From: a virus
Reading direction: 5' to 3' (one strand)
Virus record (IMG/VR): IMGVR_UViG_3300042731_001147
Location: 1-25,378 of that record
DNA: 25,378 nucleotides
Part shown: positions 876-25,211 of the stretch, piece by piece
Numbering within the stretch: position 1 is the stretch's first letter
How the letters are laid out: each line of letters begins with the position of its first letter
Program-made: the position numbers and the translations under genes
Notes under the pieces: model-generated
What the model was told of the DNA's origin: nothing
What the model saw: the letters and a program-made list of their open reading frames with translations, nothing else
Database searches by the model: none

Positions 876-1295
876 TTAGTGATTAAGCATAATTTTGTTT
901 ATTGATCCGCTAGTCCAGTTTGAAACGTAGGCTCTTACCCAAACATAATTTCCCGTAAAATTGTAGTTGTTGTTTGCAGTTGAATCATCAAATGATAGAC
1001 TTGATACTATTACTGTTGACCCTGAACTTACTGCTCCTGTCGTATCTACAGTCCCTGCTACAGTTGTATTAGTAGCAAGTTCTACATTAAACCAATCATC
1101 ATCTGTGGGAGAAACAGCAAGGGTTCCTTGTATTTCAATTTGACCAGTAAATCCTGTTAAATTTACTTGTATGGTATGGAGACCATCGCTACGTCCATAG
1201 TAGCCGTCGCCTTTGAATTTATCGCCAGTGACAGTTGTAATTGTACTGTCGTCTGGGTGTGTATTTATTGGTAATATCGTTTCGCTCTGTGCCAT
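876..1295 (-). CDS. Conserved beta-rich hypothetical, probable virion protein
   Basis: This 139-residue protein is read from the ATG at 1295. A longer frame could begin with TTG at 1310, but neither start has a clear Shine-Dalgarno and ATG is preferred. The protein is rich in Thr, Ser, Val, Gly and Asn with alternating hydrophobic residues (for example IQVNLTGFTGQIEIQGTL and YVWVRAYVSNW), which suggests a single beta-sandwich domain. There is no signal peptide, membrane segment or Cys pair. It sits directly before a fibre-like gene and shares its transcription direction, so a virion or fibre-accessory role is likely. I do not recognise a named family. Confidence 0.6.
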   Translation of the reverse strand: MAQSETILPINTHPDDSTITTVTGDKFKGDGYYGRSDGLHTIQVNLTGFTGQIEIQGTLAVSPTDDDWFNVELATNTTVAGTVDTTGAVSSGSTVIVSSLSFDDSTANNNYNFTGNYVWVRAYVSNWTSGSINKIMLNH

Positions 1296-1299
1296 ATAA

Positions 1300-1986
1300 C
1301 TATTTATCAATAGTTGACTTGACTACCAGTTTGTCTATTCTTCGAACGTTATCAGTTAAAAGTGCAATTAATTGCAATGTTTTTTCGTCTCTTGCATAGA
1401 AGTACATGTTATTAACGTATCCGTTTCCTTCCATTTCTTCTAAGCATCTGTAACCTACCTTGACTAGCTTTTTATTTTTTCTAGCCCATGCCGCAAATGA
1501 TGAGTCTGTATTTTTATTTCCAAGAGTAACTCTAAATTGATACCCGTTATCCTTGTCAACAATGATAGTATTTGCATCTAACAATTTTATATCTTTAATA
1601 TTTGGTTTATATAATGACCTCACACTTTCTTTGTCAAGTAAACTAGCAACATACATTAGCCAGCTTAAATCATTACAATAAATGTTTAGATAATTGCGTT
1701 CAACTCTTAACTTATATTCATTATAATTCGAAAATGCGTTGTACAACTTTTTGGCATCAATAAAATCCTGTATACGTATAGGACTTAGTCTTCTACCCCA
1801 CGTTACTGTGAGTTCTGAATTGATGTCGTGTTGGGCTTGTAAATTATCTAAACTTTCCCTAGCTACATTTAATCTTTTCTCTCTAAATACTGTAGAAAGT
1901 TGATTGTATATTTCTAGTCTATAAAGATAGATGTTATAGTATAGTTTGTTAGACTCACACTGCTTCAATCTCACTCTCCACTTCAC
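1300..1986 (-). CDS. Conserved hypothetical protein downstream of ClpA
   Basis: This 228-residue protein is read from a GTG at 1986, 32 bases inside the 3' end of the ClpA-like gene. There is no in-frame ATG until around residue 111, so a GTG start and translational coupling to clpA are likely. It is basic, Tyr/Leu/Asn-rich and mixed alpha/beta, with CESNKLYYNIYLYRLEIYNQ near the N-terminus and no recognisable catalytic motif, membrane helix or signal peptide. I do not recognise a family. The tight overlap with the ClpA-like gene suggests co-expression and possibly a functional link such as a substrate adaptor, but that is only inference from position. Confidence 0.6.
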   Translation of the reverse strand: MKWRVRLKQCESNKLYYNIYLYRLEIYNQLSTVFREKRLNVARESLDNLQAQHDINSELTVTWGRRLSPIRIQDFIDAKKLYNAFSNYNEYKLRVERNYLNIYCNDLSWLMYVASLLDKESVRSLYKPNIKDIKLLDANTIIVDKDNGYQFRVTLGNKNTDSSFAAWARKNKKLVKVGYRCLEEMEGNGYVNNMYFYARDEKTLQLIALLTDNVRRIDKLVVKSTIDK

Positions 1987-4192
1987 AGTCTAGGAAGAAT
2001 GAATCGTTTCTAAAATCTATAGTTACACTTCCGCCATTTTTAAGTTTACCAAACAATAGTTCTCTTGATAGTTGTCGTTTTATTTCTTTGTCAATAACAC
2101 GTTGTAATGGCCTTGCACCATTCTTAGGATCAAACCCCTTGTCCACTAATGCATCTAAAGCATCATCAGTAACACTAATTGCAACATCTTTGTTCTTAAC
2201 TTGATTTTTTAGTTCTAGTAAAAACTTGCCTACAATTTTCATCATTACTTCTTTGCTTAATTTTGCAAATGTTATTGTTCCATCTAGTCTATTTCTAAAC
2301 TCTGGAGAGAAGAAACGTTTTAATTCAGTATCATCATAACTGTTTTCGAATTCATCACCAAAGCCGATTGTATTTTTCTCTGCTTGTTTTGCACCAAGAT
2401 TTGTTGTAAGAATTAGTATACAGTTTCGTAAGTCAGCTTCTTTACCATTAGACCCAGTTACTTTACCATTATCCATTATTTGTAATAATATTGTGCTTAC
2501 GTCTGGATGAGCCTTTTCAATCTCGTCAAGTAGTAGCACACAATTTGGATTTTCTTGTACCTTTTCAATTAGCTGACCACCTGTTTCTTCATGACCGACA
2601 TATCCTGGTGGTGAACCTATTAGTTTACTTACACTATGTTTTTCTTGATATTCACTCATATCAAACCGTACAAGATTTACTCCTAAATGATTAGCAAGTT
2701 GTTTTGCAGTTTCTGTCTTACCGGTTCCTGTTGGACCCATAAACACAAACGAGCCTACAGGTTTATCTTCAGGCTTCAAACCTGCTTGTGCAACTAGTAT
2801 TTTATCTACAATGCTTTCTAATGCTTCGTCTTGACCATAGACAACTTTTTTCAAATTATCTTCTAAATGGGCTAAGTTTTCTGACTCTGTTTCAGAAACT
2901 TGTTCAGTAGGTAAATTAATTACTTTGCTTAATTCAAATTCAATATTAGATGCATTTACAATCTTATCTGCACTTTCATTTAATTTAAATCTAGCACAAG
3001 CAATATCAATCAAATCAATTGCTTTATCAGGAAGTTTTTTATCTGACTGATATTTTACACTTAGTCTTACAGCTGCTTCAATTGCTTCCTGTGTTATTTC
3101 AGTTGCATGATAATCTTCATAATATTTTTTAATACCGTTTAAGATTTCTTTTGTAACTTCTGGTGTAGGTTCGTCAATAGTTACACGTTGGAACCTACGC
3201 ATTAAAGCTCGATCTTTTTCAAAGTATTTTCTATATTCTTCCCATGTTGTACTTGCTACAACTTTGATATTTCCTTTTGTAAGAGCAGGTTTCAACATAT
3301 TTGCAAGGTCGTTTGCATTTCCTTGGCCTCCTGCTCCTGCGCCATTCATCATGTGTGCTTCGTCAATAAACATAATAGTTTTACCCTTGCCCTTTAATCC
3401 TTTAAGAACAAGTTTAAATCTTTCTTCAAAATCGCCTCTGTATTTTGAACCTGCAAGCATCGCACCTATGTCCAACATATAGACTTCATACTCTTGTAAA
3501 AACGAAGGAACATCTTTAGAAACAATTTTATAAGCAAGACCTTCTGCAATAGCAGTTTTACCAACACCGGGATCACCTACCATAAGCACATTGTTTTTAT
3601 TTCTACGTCCTAGAGCAAGTGCAAGTTTTTCTAGTTCTTCTGCTCTGCCTATAACAGGATCAATTCTTTTGCGTTTTACTTCTTCATTAAGGTTAGTTGT
3701 GAAATGACGTAGTGCTTTTTGTGCAGCTCCGCTCATTTCTTCATCTTCGAACACTGCTTCAAACTCTGCACTTACGTATTCAGAAAATGTATCCTTTGAG
3801 AATCCTGCTTTTTCTAAATAGTAACAAGCATGAGTTTTCTTTTCATGTAGTACACTAAGCAATACATCTGCTAATTCTATTTCAGGCCGGCCTGCAAACA
3901 AAACTTGGGTAAACGCTCTGTTAAGCACTCTTTCAACAGACTGTGTCTTTTTAGGTTTATACTTGTCATTTTCTATTTTCACATCTTCTAAATTATTTTT
4001 TAGATAATGCTCTAACTGCGATTTAAGAAAATCTACATCTGCTCCATAACCTTTACATAGTTCACTAAAGTTCTCAGAACACATCATAGAAAAAACTAGA
4101 TGCTCAAGAGTTACATACTCGTGTTGTAACTTCTTTGCGTCTTTAATACTTTTATCAAAAACTAACTGTAACTCTTTACTTGGTTCAACCAT
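1955..4192 (-). CDS. clpA: ClpA-like AAA+ unfoldase (Clp protease ATP-binding subunit)
   Basis: At 745 residues this is close to full length for ClpA (about 758). The N-domain (about 1-145) has the Clp_N look, with EYVTLEHLVFSMM and the later ELADVLLSVL. The D1 ring has Walker A GDPGVGKT at 206-213 and Walker B FIDEAH. D2 has Walker A GPTGTGKT at 486-493, Walker B LLLDEIEKAH and a C-terminal small domain (GARPLQRVI). The tripeptide I609-G610-F611 falls where ClpA and ClpX carry the IGL/IGF loop that docks onto ClpP, whereas ClpB lacks it. There is no long ClpB-type coiled-coil insertion in D1. No clpP is present in the window, so the inference is that it feeds host ClpP or acts as a stand-alone unfoldase. 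The ATG at 4192 has an AAAGGAAAG ribosome site and overlaps def by 8 bases. Confidence 0.95.
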   Translation of the reverse strand: MVEPSKELQLVFDKSIKDAKKLQHEYVTLEHLVFSMMCSENFSELCKGYGADVDFLKSQLEHYLKNNLEDVKIENDKYKPKKTQSVERVLNRAFTQVLFAGRPEIELADVLLSVLHEKKTHACYYLEKAGFSKDTFSEYVSAEFEAVFEDEEMSGAAQKALRHFTTNLNEEVKRKRIDPVIGRAEELEKLALALGRRNKNNVLMVGDPGVGKTAIAEGLAYKIVSKDVPSFLQEYEVYMLDIGAMLAGSKYRGDFEERFKLVLKGLKGKGKTIMFIDEAHMMNGAGAGGQGNANDLANMLKPALTKGNIKVVASTTWEEYRKYFEKDRALMRRFQRVTIDEPTPEVTKEILNGIKKYYEDYHATEITQEAIEAAVRLSVKYQSDKKLPDKAIDLIDIACARFKLNESADKIVNASNIEFELSKVINLPTEQVSETESENLAHLEDNLKKVVYGQDEALESIVDKILVAQAGLKPEDKPVGSFVFMGPTGTGKTETAKQLANHLGVNLVRFDMSEYQEKHSVSKLIGSPPGYVGHEETGGQLIEKVQENPNCVLLLDEIEKAHPDVSTILLQIMDNGKVTGSNGKEADLRNCILILTTNLGAKQAEKNTIGFGDEFENSYDDTELKRFFSPEFRNRLDGTITFAKLSKEVMMKIVGKFLLELKNQVKNKDVAISVTDDALDALVDKGFDPKNGARPLQRVIDKEIKRQLSRELLFGKLKNGGSVTIDFRNDSFFLDCEVESEIEAV

Positions 4193-4691
4193 GCGTTGCT
4201 TTCCTTTTTTTATCTCTTTTCTTTTTTGCTCTATCGACTTTTAGCTTACTGACACGGTCAGTAAATTCAATGCCTTGTAAATGATCATATTCGTGTAAAA
4301 AACATCTTGCGTCAATGTCTATAAGTTCTATTATACACTCTGTAGCTGTAATGTCAAGATATTTTGCCCATATATGTTTTGCTCTATTTACTTGTAAAAA
4401 TAAGTCCGGATGACTTAAACAGCCTTCTGGCATTAATTCTGTTTCTTCACTAACTTTAATTATTTCAGGATTGATTATAGTTAAGTATCCATTTTTCTCA
4501 AGTAAATGAGTTTTCATAACAAAAATTTGTGCGTCCAATGCAACTTGATTGGCACTTAATCCAATGCCGCCTTCTTTTTCCATTACGTCAATCATTTGCT
4601 TAGACACTTCTTCAGCATTAAGAAAGTTAAAGCTGAATGGTTCAACTTTCTTTTCTAACCAAGGGTCAGGTGATTTAACGAGTTTTAGCAT
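4185..4691 (-). CDS. def: Peptide deformylase
   Basis: This 168-residue protein is a typical length for the family. It removes the N-formyl group from nascent proteins using a metal ion. All three family motifs are intact: motif I GIGLSANQ at 42-49, motif II EGCLS at 89-93 with metal ligand Cys91, and motif III HEYDH at 133-137 with the two His ligands and the catalytic Glu. A lysine/arginine-rich tail (about 151-166) extends past the catalytic core. The start ATG has an AGAGGT ribosome site. The gene overlaps the 3' end of the DnaJ-like gene by 17 bases and the clpA start by 8, so the three are very likely translated from one mRNA. Deformylases are known in marine T4-like phages; this copy sits with chaperone genes rather than photosystem genes. 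Confidence 0.95.
   Translation of the reverse strand: MLKLVKSPDPWLEKKVEPFSFNFLNAEEVSKQMIDVMEKEGGIGLSANQVALDAQIFVMKTHLLEKNGYLTIINPEIIKVSEETELMPEGCLSHPDLFLQVNRAKHIWAKYLDITATECIIELIDIDARCFLHEYDHLQGIEFTDRVSKLKVDRAKKKRDKKRKATHG
4330..4357 (-). promoter_or_regulatory. Possible internal sigma-70 promoter inside def
   Basis: On the minus strand TTGACA (4357-4352) is followed after 16 bases by TATAAT (4335-4330). Both hexamers match the sigma-70 consensus exactly. The site is inside the def coding sequence and would start a transcript near 4322, about 130 bases before the clpA start. The AT-rich composition raises the chance of a false match, and a 16-base spacer is slightly short. Confidence 0.35.
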
Positions 4692-5514
4692 CTATTACCT
4701 CTCTTATTTTACGTAGTGAATCATTATCTAAGTTTGTTGGAATAATAGCCTGAATAGTTACATATAAATTTCCAGGCTGATGATTGTGAACATTAGGAAC
4801 ACCATAACCTCTAAGACTTAATGTAGTATTATTTTTCGTTCCTTGTTTAATATTTAATTCTATTGATCTACCATCAGGTGTTTGAAAATTATGCTTAGTT
4901 CCTACAATCATGTCTAAACAATCTATGTTCAAAAATCCATGTACATTATCCCCTTCACGTCTCCATTGCGTACTATTATCTACTTTAATTATTACAAACA
5001 AATCTCCAGGTCGCATATTTGGAATACTGTTATCACCTAGACCTTGGAATCTTATTGTATCTCCATCTCTAACACCTATAGGAATATCTAGATCAACACT
5101 TTTTTCCTGTCCATTACGTAATCTATACGTAGCAATTACTTTTTTGCCCCTCCATAATTCAACAAAGTCTATATGTACTTTTAATCTTACATCAGCATTT
5201 GCTCTAGAGTGTTGATGCGGCTTATTTTGGAATCCTCCTCCAAACATACTATTAAAAACATCAGCAAAATTATTACCAAATGCATCATTAAAACTTCCGT
5301 TAAAATTTTGAGAGTTCATTCTAACCTGGGGGTTATCATACTCTGCTCTTTTTTGTGGATCTTTTAATGTGCTATATGCTTCATTTATTTTTTTAAATTC
5401 TTCTTCGTTGCCGCCGCGGTCAGGATGGTGTTGCATACTTTTTTGTTTGTATGCTTTTTTAAGATCTTTATCGGAAACATTCCTCGGCACTCCAAGAATA
5501 GAATAATAGTCCAT
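4675..5514 (-). CDS. cbpA: DnaJ/CbpA-type J-domain co-chaperone
   Basis: This 279-residue protein has an N-terminal J domain (about 1-65) with the invariant HPD at 30-32 (QHHPDRGG). A Gly/Phe/Asn-rich linker follows (about 68-105: NFNGSFNDAFGNNF, MFGGGF), then the two beta-rich C-terminal substrate-binding domains (about 110-270). The Cys-rich zinc finger of DnaJ is absent, which places it in the CbpA class (type II Hsp40). The HPD motif implies that it stimulates a DnaK ATPase. No dnaK is in the window, so the host DnaK is the likely partner. The ATG at 5514 has only a weak ribosome site. It is the first gene of the DnaJ-def-clpA run, and its last 17 bases overlap def. Confidence 0.93.
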   Translation of the reverse strand: MDYYSILGVPRNVSDKDLKKAYKQKSMQHHPDRGGNEEEFKKINEAYSTLKDPQKRAEYDNPQVRMNSQNFNGSFNDAFGNNFADVFNSMFGGGFQNKPHQHSRANADVRLKVHIDFVELWRGKKVIATYRLRNGQEKSVDLDIPIGVRDGDTIRFQGLGDNSIPNMRPGDLFVIIKVDNSTQWRREGDNVHGFLNIDCLDMIVGTKHNFQTPDGRSIELNIKQGTKNNTTLSLRGYGVPNVHNHQPGNLYVTIQAIIPTNLDNDSLRKIREVIDAKTR

Positions 5515-5557
5515 ACAATTACTTATCGTACGGACTATTGCTAAAACTTAGTAGTGA

Positions 5558-9872: not shown

Positions 9873-9881
9873 TATTTATCG
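9873..9881 (-). promoter_or_regulatory. T4-type late promoter (CGATAAATA)
   Basis: CGATAAATA on the minus strand lies 27 bases before the ATG at 9846. The same 9-mer precedes the fibre genes at 22570 and 25181. It matches the T4 late consensus TATAAATA in the ATAAATA core. It should drive the leftward late operon of virion and lysis genes. Confidence 0.72.
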
Positions 9882-17531: not shown

Positions 17532-17930
17532 TTAAGATGCTACATCGCCAACCCATGCACCTTGACCGTCACTATATTCTGCGCCGATTTGTGCATCGTT
17601 TGGCTTTTCTTTTGAAGAAGCAAGAACTGCTTCAGATTCTACCATACGTACAATTAAACCTTCTTGTTCAGGAGTGTCAATATTCATAGCCCGTGTCCAA
17701 CGGCCATGTTCAATTAATATCCAATCTCCTACTTCATATGGGTCTTTATTAAGGGGACCTTTTGAATAAACTCTACCCCAACGAGGATATATTCCTCTTG
17801 TTGTAGCATTATCATCTGTGAGAATAATGCCGCCTTTTGTAGTTTGTTCACCAAAGTGCATATCAGTTACAAGAACTCTATTTCCTACTGCTCTTGGTGT
17901 TCCTTTAATTGCATTAAGGTTAATAGCCAT
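17532..17930 (-). CDS. 31: GroES/gp31-like co-chaperonin
   Basis: This 132-residue protein follows the GroES layout. PRAVGNRVLVTD is the first strand. GEQTTKGGIILTDDNATTRG is the mobile loop, with GGIIL at 33-37 replacing GGIVL. Strands with GRVYSKGP, YEVGDWILIEHG and VRMVESEAVLA complete the barrel. About 28 residues (105-132) extend past the GroES core, ending GQGAWVGDVAS. It should cap host GroEL and help fold the major capsid protein, as gp31 does in T4. The ATG overlaps the upstream stop by TAATG. Confidence 0.85.
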   Translation of the reverse strand: MAINLNAIKGTPRAVGNRVLVTDMHFGEQTTKGGIILTDDNATTRGIYPRWGRVYSKGPLNKDPYEVGDWILIEHGRWTRAMNIDTPEQEGLIVRMVESEAVLASSKEKPNDAQIGAEYSDGQGAWVGDVAS

Positions 17931-18328: not shown

Positions 18329-18337
18329 TACTTATCT
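18329..18337 (-). promoter_or_regulatory. Possible late promoter variant (AGATAAGTA)
   Basis: AGATAAGTA on the minus strand differs from AGATAAATA (used at 19727-19735) by one base and is 22 bases before the ATG at 18307, the same spacing as the stronger copies. It overlaps the stop of the DnaE-like gene. It could give the downstream protein and the co-chaperonin late expression. Confidence 0.4.
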
Positions 18338-18889
18338 CAGGAACTCTCGCCAGTCCAGGCCATATTGGATTGAATTTATACGATGTACACCGATCAAATA
18401 TAACACATAACTAGCAACACTAGATCCACGTCCTACACCCCATACGATGTTGTTCTCACGCATAAAGTCCACTAGATAAATCATATAGCGTAATAGGTCA
18501 AACATACCACGTTCTTTAAACGCTTCTAGTTCTTCTTCTACTCGCATCCATTCTGGAGAGTTATATATAAAATCAACTCCAAAGTTTTGTTTTTCTTCAA
18601 TCACTTTTGCGAATAGCCATTCTCCTATAGCAAGTGCTTTGTATTCATCTGGCATAAACCATTCACTTTGACACACACCGTCAAACGTCTTTTGGTCTAC
18701 ATCTAATGGAATATATTTTTGCAATGGATTCATACCTTGCTCTTCCATTGCTGTATTAAATTTATCTACATCATCACTAGAATCACATAACACCACATGG
18801 ACTTTATCAGCATGACCTGAATAGATCATATCGATTAAATCGCGATTAGAGAATCTCGGTATACCTAGTTCGTCTGTTTTCATAAGCAT
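18332..18889 (-). CDS. DnaE-like fragment (DNA polymerase III alpha-related), non-catalytic
   Basis: This 185-residue protein has a C-terminal third that matches the stretch of bacterial DnaE just before the polymerase active site: WGVGRGSSVASYVLYLIG (about 150-167) corresponds to the GPGRGSGAGSLVAYALG element. HRINSIQYGLDWREFLR follows the pattern of the ITDIDPLKYDLLFERFL segment. The protein stops there, so the DxD catalytic aspartates that come next in DnaE are absent. It cannot be a complete polymerase. A role as regulator or decoy in host replication is possible. ATG 18889 or ATG 18883 could be the start; no ribosome site is visible, and the promoter at 18896-18924 would start transcription almost at the first codon. 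Confidence 0.78.
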   Translation of the reverse strand: MLMKTDELGIPRFSNRDLIDMIYSGHADKVHVVLCDSSDDVDKFNTAMEEQGMNPLQKYIPLDVDQKTFDGVCQSEWFMPDEYKALAIGEWLFAKVIEEKQNFGVDFIYNSPEWMRVEEELEAFKERGMFDLLRYMIYLVDFMRENNIVWGVGRGSSVASYVLYLIGVHRINSIQYGLDWREFLR

Positions 18890-19726: not shown

Positions 19727-19735
19727 TATTTATCT
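19727..19735 (-). promoter_or_regulatory. T4-type late promoter (AGATAAATA)
   Basis: AGATAAATA on the minus strand lies 19 bases before the ATG at 19708 and just after the end of the 943-residue gene. One base differs from CGATAAATA upstream of the neighbouring structural genes. Confidence 0.68.
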
Positions 19736-22592: not shown

Positions 22593-22601
22593 TATTTATC
22601 G
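22593..22601 (-). promoter_or_regulatory. T4-type late promoter (CGATAAATA)
   Basis: CGATAAATA on the minus strand lies 23 bases before the ATG at 22570 and starts two bases after the upstream gene's stop codon. It is identical to the copies at 9873-9881 and 25203-25211. Confidence 0.75.
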
Positions 22602-25202: not shown

Positions 25203-25211
25203 TATTTATCG
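25203..25211 (-). promoter_or_regulatory. T4-type late promoter (CGATAAATA)
   Basis: CGATAAATA on the minus strand lies 22 bases before the ATG at 25181, just after the stop codon at 25221. It is an exact copy of the elements at 22593 and 9873. Confidence 0.75.

Follow-up and report, generated by a model that had tools for sequence, protein, structure and literature searches.

An operon coding for a J-domain protein (DnaJ), a peptide deformylase (Def), and a two-ring AAA+ unfoldase (ClpA) was found in a 25,378-base virus fragment, IMG/VR record IMGVR_UViG_3300042731_001147 (hereafter, the window), which comes from a large aquatic phage of the jumbo-phage type. Comparison with the other phages harboring it, i.e., T4-related jumbo phages, documents at the sequence level the identity of the genes, their intact motifs, a conserved order, a clade of phage ClpA, and the occurrence of ClpP and ClpS in the relatives. 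The favored reading, with a probability of roughly 60%, is that of a conserved late protein-quality module combining the phage's own ClpA, ClpP, and ClpS with a DnaJ acting on host DnaK and a boost from Def. The three genes of the operon are the following:

4675–5514, minus strand: DnaJ, a class B zinc-less J-domain protein (J-domain with HPD, G/F-like linker, DnaJ_C)

4185–4691, minus strand: Def, a peptide deformylase with three catalytic motifs and a basic C-terminal helix at residues 149–167

1955–4192, minus strand: ClpA, a two-ring AAA+ unfoldase with the Clp_N domain and the ClpP-docking tripeptide IGF

A check of the open reading frames (ORFs) confirmed the frames, strands, and overlaps reported in an earlier note on this DNA (17 bases between DnaJ and Def, 4675–4691; 8 bases between Def and ClpA, 4185–4192), and Pfam, PHROG, and NCBIfam are concordant on the identities of all three proteins.

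The gene order was followed in the 80 closest viral loci (ClpA 71–80% identical; set 1) and in two wider scans seeded with more distant ClpA proteins (sets 2 and 3), where DnaJ was counted within 700 bases. DnaJ is located upstream of ClpA in 75/75 close loci with enough upstream DNA, either adjoining it or with Def alone intervening, except for locus L060, where there is a 496-base gap. In the wider sets, DnaJ is found within the above distance in 74/78 and 67/77 loci, and the remaining loci mostly display a longer gap containing Def and further sequence. The DnaJ–ClpA adjacency is kept while ClpA drops to about 45% identity; the distances measured for ClpA, DnaJ, and Def are correlated with one another (r 0.71–0.79). 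Among cultured phages, the order DnaJ–Def–ClpA is encountered in Phosso and DnaJ–ClpA in Atu_ph07 and PA5oct/Paride, the DnaJ of Paride being annotated as “hypothetical”. Hence, the order for which the earlier note proposed a search in related phages is kept and not scattered. Its view of the three genes as one unit holds for the DnaJ–ClpA pair but less so for Def, which is often lost or relocated: Def intervenes between the two in 34 of the 75 close operons, and at least about 22 changes are needed to account for its presence on the ClpA tree. In two large phage contigs devoid of the operon Def (G006 and G008), a Def is located elsewhere in the contig; it is ~43% identical to the operon Def and groups with the Def of sister phages, so replacement of the operon gene is suggested.

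In bacterial genomes, DnaJ was found upstream of ClpA in none of the 68 cellular ClpA loci, a set that leaves out L111, L113–L115, and the truncated L112, which are phage-like contigs binned into metagenome-assembled genomes (MAGs). Since cellular loci lack this arrangement and the phage ClpA proteins form a single old clade (see below), a recent capture from a host operon was rejected.

The omitted contigs are mis-binned jumbo phages. In L111 (PBPT01000016.1, 335 kb) and L112–L115, a phage-type ClpA is adjoined by orfD and orfE (see below), and a phage DnaJ is present wherever the contig extends far enough; their MAG labels are both bacterial and archaeal (Neomarinimicrobiota, Halobacteroidaceae, Rickettsiales, Pelagibacter, Pacearchaeota). 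The records of Acinetobacter phage MD-2021a and several records of “Listeria phage” and “Staphylococcus phage” resemble host chromosome (e.g., clpS–clpA beside argC and aroF); such records inflate the match counts for housekeeping genes.

The ClpA protein possesses Clp_N, two AAA+ modules, AAA_lid_9, and ClpB_D2-small (Pfam), matches phrog_4871 (E 4e-253), and aligns with E. coli ClpA over residues 6–728 without a middle-domain insert. This near end-to-end alignment bears out the earlier description of a full-length two-ring ClpA-like protein. A ClpB-like identity, named there as the possibility to be checked, was ruled out by the NCBIfam scores (889 bits with TIGR02639 ClpA vs. 667 bits with ClpB) and by a tree of 69 proteins, in which all phage ClpA form one clade beside cellular ClpA (Shimodaira–Hasegawa-like approximate likelihood ratio test, SH-aLRT, 100), with ClpB and ClpC falling outside the ClpA grouping (SH-aLRT 100). 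The ClpP-docking tripeptide [IVL]G[FMV] is present in 248/248 phage ClpA proteins and absent from two ClpB controls; the ATPase motifs are near-invariant across the same 248 proteins, with Walker A/B and the arginine fingers intact. The protein is predicted to be an ATP-dependent unfoldase binding ClpP.

DnaJ (Pfam DnaJ 3e-22, DnaJ_C 9e-32) displays the hallmarks of class B, i.e., a J-domain with HPD, a DnaJ_C domain, and no zinc finger. Among its 156 distinct relatives, HPD is kept in 155 and the CxxCxG zinc motif was found in none, in agreement with the Hsp40 with HPD and without a zinc finger noticed previously. The label “CbpA-type” is apt for this architecture but not for orthology: with the CbpA equivalog model, the protein scores 114.5 bits, below the cut-off of 403.

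The deformylase was likewise rightly described as intact. It matches Pep_deformylase (Pfam, 3e-42), exceeds the TIGR00079 cut-off (123.6 vs. 104 bits), and carries GxGxxANQ, EGCLS, and HExDH, conforming to the patterns GxGxxAxQ, EGC[LI]S, and HExDH. Its AlphaFold model (predicted local distance difference test, pLDDT, 95) ends with the C-terminal helix listed above; in the viral Def sets, the tail beyond HExDH comprises 14–41 residues and is typically basic, with a median net charge of +6 to +7.5. Judging from model and sequence, this helix is probably of the ribosome-docking type, and ribosome binding is predicted. All viral deformylases identified by 2017 were stated to be devoid of the ribosome-interacting C-terminus (PMC5591237); the Def with a basic C-terminal helix represents an exception to this claim. 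The viral deformylases Vp16 and S-SSM7 share its catalytic motifs, whereas the Def from the window retains the C-terminus which they lack according to PMC5591237.

The partners of ClpA were sought in 20 contigs of the relatives, revealing ClpP in seven and ClpS in six of them. ClpP always resides on the ClpA strand, 35–65 kb upstream of ClpA (7 contigs), and ClpS 65–100 kb upstream, which holds for contig L080 only if the latter is circular. Where the contig extends 54 kb or more upstream, ClpP is present in 6/6, and where it extends 80 kb or more, ClpS is present in 5/5; therefore, most of the negatives are ascribed to truncated contigs. Both proteins are encoded in 5/5 cultured ClpA phages checked. 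The catalytic triad of ClpP is intact in the aligned phage proteins, and the ClpS pocket motif is kept. A ClpP subtype with an insertion of ~10 residues, TMIHR[VA] around the catalytic His, and an intact triad was observed in L084–L088 and L102.

Thus, the phage ClpS and ClpP partners that the earlier note suggested looking for do exist in relatives and cultured phages, and they are presumably present in the genome of this phage as well. Since the relatives encode both, no redirection of host ClpP is needed; the earlier proposal of such redirection is probably wrong or incomplete, and a ClpAPS protease of the phage's own, DnaK being what is borrowed from the host, appears the likeliest arrangement, ahead of a hijacked host ClpP. 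A phage-encoded DnaK was also considered and rejected: the 13 large records of relatives searched yielded no Hsp70. Because of this, DnaJ most likely works with host DnaK, so the proposed recruitment of the latter stands as the best reading. In the same 13 records, no L/F-transferase, required for a complete phage N-degron branch, was found, and Cpn60 was detected in one. The assertion that the phage touches all main chaperone and protease routes turned out to be overstated. Def has repeatedly dropped out of the operon or been relocated.

The surroundings of the operon include the following features:

1300–1986, minus strand: orfD, a conserved gene with its start codon within the 3′ end of clpA

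876–1295, minus strand: orfE, coding for a virion structural protein, with its start moved to the ATG at 1295; the conserved downstream boundary gene

17532–17930, minus strand: a putative GroES/gp31-like co-chaperonin, belonging to the same conserved block as DnaJ–Def–ClpA

5520–5527, minus strand: octamer GATAAGTA, late-promoter-like, at −13 to −6 relative to the DnaJ start codon

5505–5539, minus strand: a perfect hairpin of 15 bp with the DnaJ start codon within its 3′ arm

1301–1308, minus strand: octamer GATAAATA at −13 of the orfE ATG, overlapping the Asp-Lys-stop codons of orfD

9873–9880, 19727–19734, 22593–22600, and 25203–25210, minus strand: octamer GATAAATA upstream of virion-region genes

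In 43 of the 54 distinct loci of set 1, the consensus NRTAARTA stands at precisely −13 relative to the DnaJ ATG, compared with a rate of 0.0016 in shuffled upstream sequence; at the orfE ORF start, the octamer is found at −13 or −12 in 37 of 76 loci. In the window, GATAAATA precedes four virion-region genes by 21–29 bases. The late promoter of phage T4 is TATAAATA, which the octamer resembles; the exact TATAAATA does not occur in the window, and the related GATAARTA was taken as the candidate. RATAAATA is not enriched in the window (8 found vs. 8.1 expected), so it is position alone that supports the octamer. Probably, GATAAATA is the late promoter of this phage, the octamer before DnaJ marks the DnaJ–Def–ClpA–orfD transcription unit, and the copy at 1301–1308 marks the start of the next late unit, that of orfE. 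The DnaJ start has no clear Shine–Dalgarno sequence; if the octamer acts as in T4, the transcript may begin at or near the DnaJ ATG and run to the next octamer, which is suggestive only. The start-codon hairpin, with at least 12 of the 15 pairs kept in about 24 of the 54 distinct loci of set 1 and a few compensatory changes among close relatives, is essentially absent from sets 2 and 3 and is weak as a general feature.

The gene orfD adjoins ClpA in nearly all loci of set 1 and most of set 2. Its predicted model is confident (pLDDT 94) and has no match in PDB at E ≤ 0.001, so that no resemblance to ClpS or another known adaptor was found at this threshold. The operon is flanked by virion genes (neck, endolysin, tail-fibre, and others). 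The orfE product matches phrog_14467, a virion structural protein (1e-11), and its profile is matched by PA5oct gp185 (5e-24), annotated as detected in the virion by electrospray ionization tandem mass spectrometry (ESI-MS/MS). DnaJ and ClpA of PA5oct, unlike the neighboring genes, bear no such annotation; therefore, they are probably not virion parts. The co-chaperonin scores 21.1 bits with Cpn10, exactly at the cut-off and weak when taken alone; it also matches phrog_931 (2e-13) and phrog_3188 (7e-6) and is 40% identical over 101 amino acids to PA5oct gp194 (“chaperonin”) in the same collinear block.

In the protein-quality module proposed here, complex formation, clients, and timing are inferred. 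A late promoter immediately ahead of DnaJ would probably drive DnaJ–Def–ClpA–orfD as one unit. A ClpA hexamer would dock on ClpP, which is most likely supplied by a phage gene in another part of the genome, and would use phage ClpS as the N-degron adaptor. It would remove proteins that hinder late infection, such as virion proteins that are misfolded or in excess, early proteins no longer needed, and perhaps proteins of the host. DnaJ, having no phage DnaK partner, would recruit host DnaK in order to hold the large amounts of structural protein or fold them, and would pass the failed ones to ClpA, while Def, via its ribosome-docking-type helix, may boost cotranslational deformylation of phage proteins. 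Several observations weigh against this reading. The ClpA score of 889 bits does not reach the cellular equivalog cut-off of TIGR02639 (993 bits); therefore, the protein is assigned to a phage subfamily within the ClpA family and not to the cellular orthologues. Def is missing from 41 of the 75 close operons. Neither ClpP nor ClpS was found in the window itself, they are never located in the DnaJ–ClpA operon, and in L080 (330 kb) ClpS is present and ClpP was not detected. Furthermore, DnaK is known to partner with the AAA+ protein ClpB, not with ClpA. It is conceivable, though doubtful, that DnaJ passes DnaK clients straight to ClpA and bypasses ClpB, the operon possibly supplying an adaptor in the form of orfD; such a phage-owned triage machine would fold or degrade virion proteins late, from a near-leaderless late transcript, with the start codon hidden by the hairpin in read-through mRNA. 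The module bears on the question of whether a J-protein and DnaK can feed ClpA.

The setting of the operon among neck, endolysin, tail-fibre, and other virion genes, with orfE as a constant neighbor, would also suit ClpA and DnaJ as ClpP-independent assembly chaperones remodelling tail or head intermediates together with host DnaK, and an overview of jumbo phages has proposed a role in virion assembly for their ClpA (PMC7824862). Still, this is unlikely, as the docking tripeptide is kept in every phage ClpA though dispensable for pure remodelling, and ClpP and ClpS co-occur with ClpA. A takeover of the host, where ClpA, acting through the ClpP of either host or phage, would degrade regulators or defence proteins of the host and DnaJ would divert DnaK (e.g., so as to alter sigma-32 or defence sensing), is rather improbable. 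It has a precedent in Rki of phage RB43, a J-domain protein proven to act on DnaK by binding it and stabilizing sigma-32 (PMC3486835), and host DnaJ takes part in phage sensing, according to what PMC12619734 relates of a paper it cites. The DnaJ described here resembles Rki in its expected action on host DnaK; however, Rki is early and consists of a J-domain only (PMC3486835), whereas the present protein is a full class B DnaJ with the substrate-binding domain, and the virion-gene setting and the octamer suggest late expression. Even less credence is given to a loose association of three separately useful accessory genes in a late cassette, without a joint mechanism. The many changes in the presence of Def and its relocation in G006 and G008 would fit, as would the phages 121Q and Vibrio phage 2.275, featuring ClpA, ClpP, and ClpS without DnaJ, but the DnaJ–ClpA adjacency outlasts the divergence of ClpA.

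The module shares with E. coli ClpAPS the domain plan, docking tripeptide, ClpS adaptor, and ClpP triad; in bacteria, clpS is paired with clpA, whereas in the phages it is dnaJ that accompanies clpA, clpS is distant, and ClpA constitutes a separate clade. A larger stretch of the window recurs collinearly in the Pseudomonas phages PA5oct and Paride of the Arenbergviridae (PA5oct gp194–gp184), with a block of co-chaperonin, clamp loader, opposite-strand PhoH, two virion proteins, DnaJ, ClpA, an orfE homologue, and a tail protein. Like the relatives, Paride harbors ClpP and ClpS elsewhere in the genome; unlike the window, it has no Def, and in both phages DnaJ is shorter (229 amino acids) and diverged, and the orfE homologue follows ClpA without an intervening orfD. 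Sinorhizobium phage Phosso shares the order DnaJ–Def–ClpA and carries ClpP and ClpS elsewhere, but its ClpA is ~43% identical and is followed by thymidylate synthase and dihydrofolate reductase, not by orfD and orfE. In Agrobacterium phage Atu_ph07, ClpA (gp292) adjoins DnaJ (gp293); ClpP (gp676), ClpS (gp708), ClpX, and ClpB are also reported (PMC6102473), and, unlike in the window, there is no Def in the genome. In AP-J-162, deformylase is gp154 and DnaJ is gp155 (PMC11242549).

ClpA, ClpP, ClpS, and DnaJ are known from single jumbo phages (PMC6102473, PMC7824862, PMC11242549), and in “moraphages” ClpA belongs to the core genes and DnaJ occurs commonly (PMC12619734). No relevant paper treating phage, DnaJ, peptide deformylase, and ClpA together was returned by the literature search. 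A DnaJ–(Def)–ClpA operon conserved among jumbo phages and regularly accompanied by phage ClpP and ClpS appears to be undescribed, and a deformylase with a ribosome-type C-terminus appears to be new among phages as far as this search goes. Thereby, isolated accessory genes (J-proteins, deformylases, Clp ATPases) become one testable module. The laboratory strain Pseudomonas aeruginosa PAO1 is a host of Paride and other PA5oct-like phages, which makes the module amenable to deletion and to the trapping of its clients.

Two minor observations concern the window itself. A tRNA-Leu called by ARAGORN within clpA (2098–2187, minus strand) was dismissed as a false positive because it is seen in no relative. 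At 18332–18889 (minus strand), a protein of 185 amino acids matches phrog_11127 (DNA polymerase, 171 positions) as well as a region inside larger families of DNA polymerase, representing a separate small polymerase-related gene.

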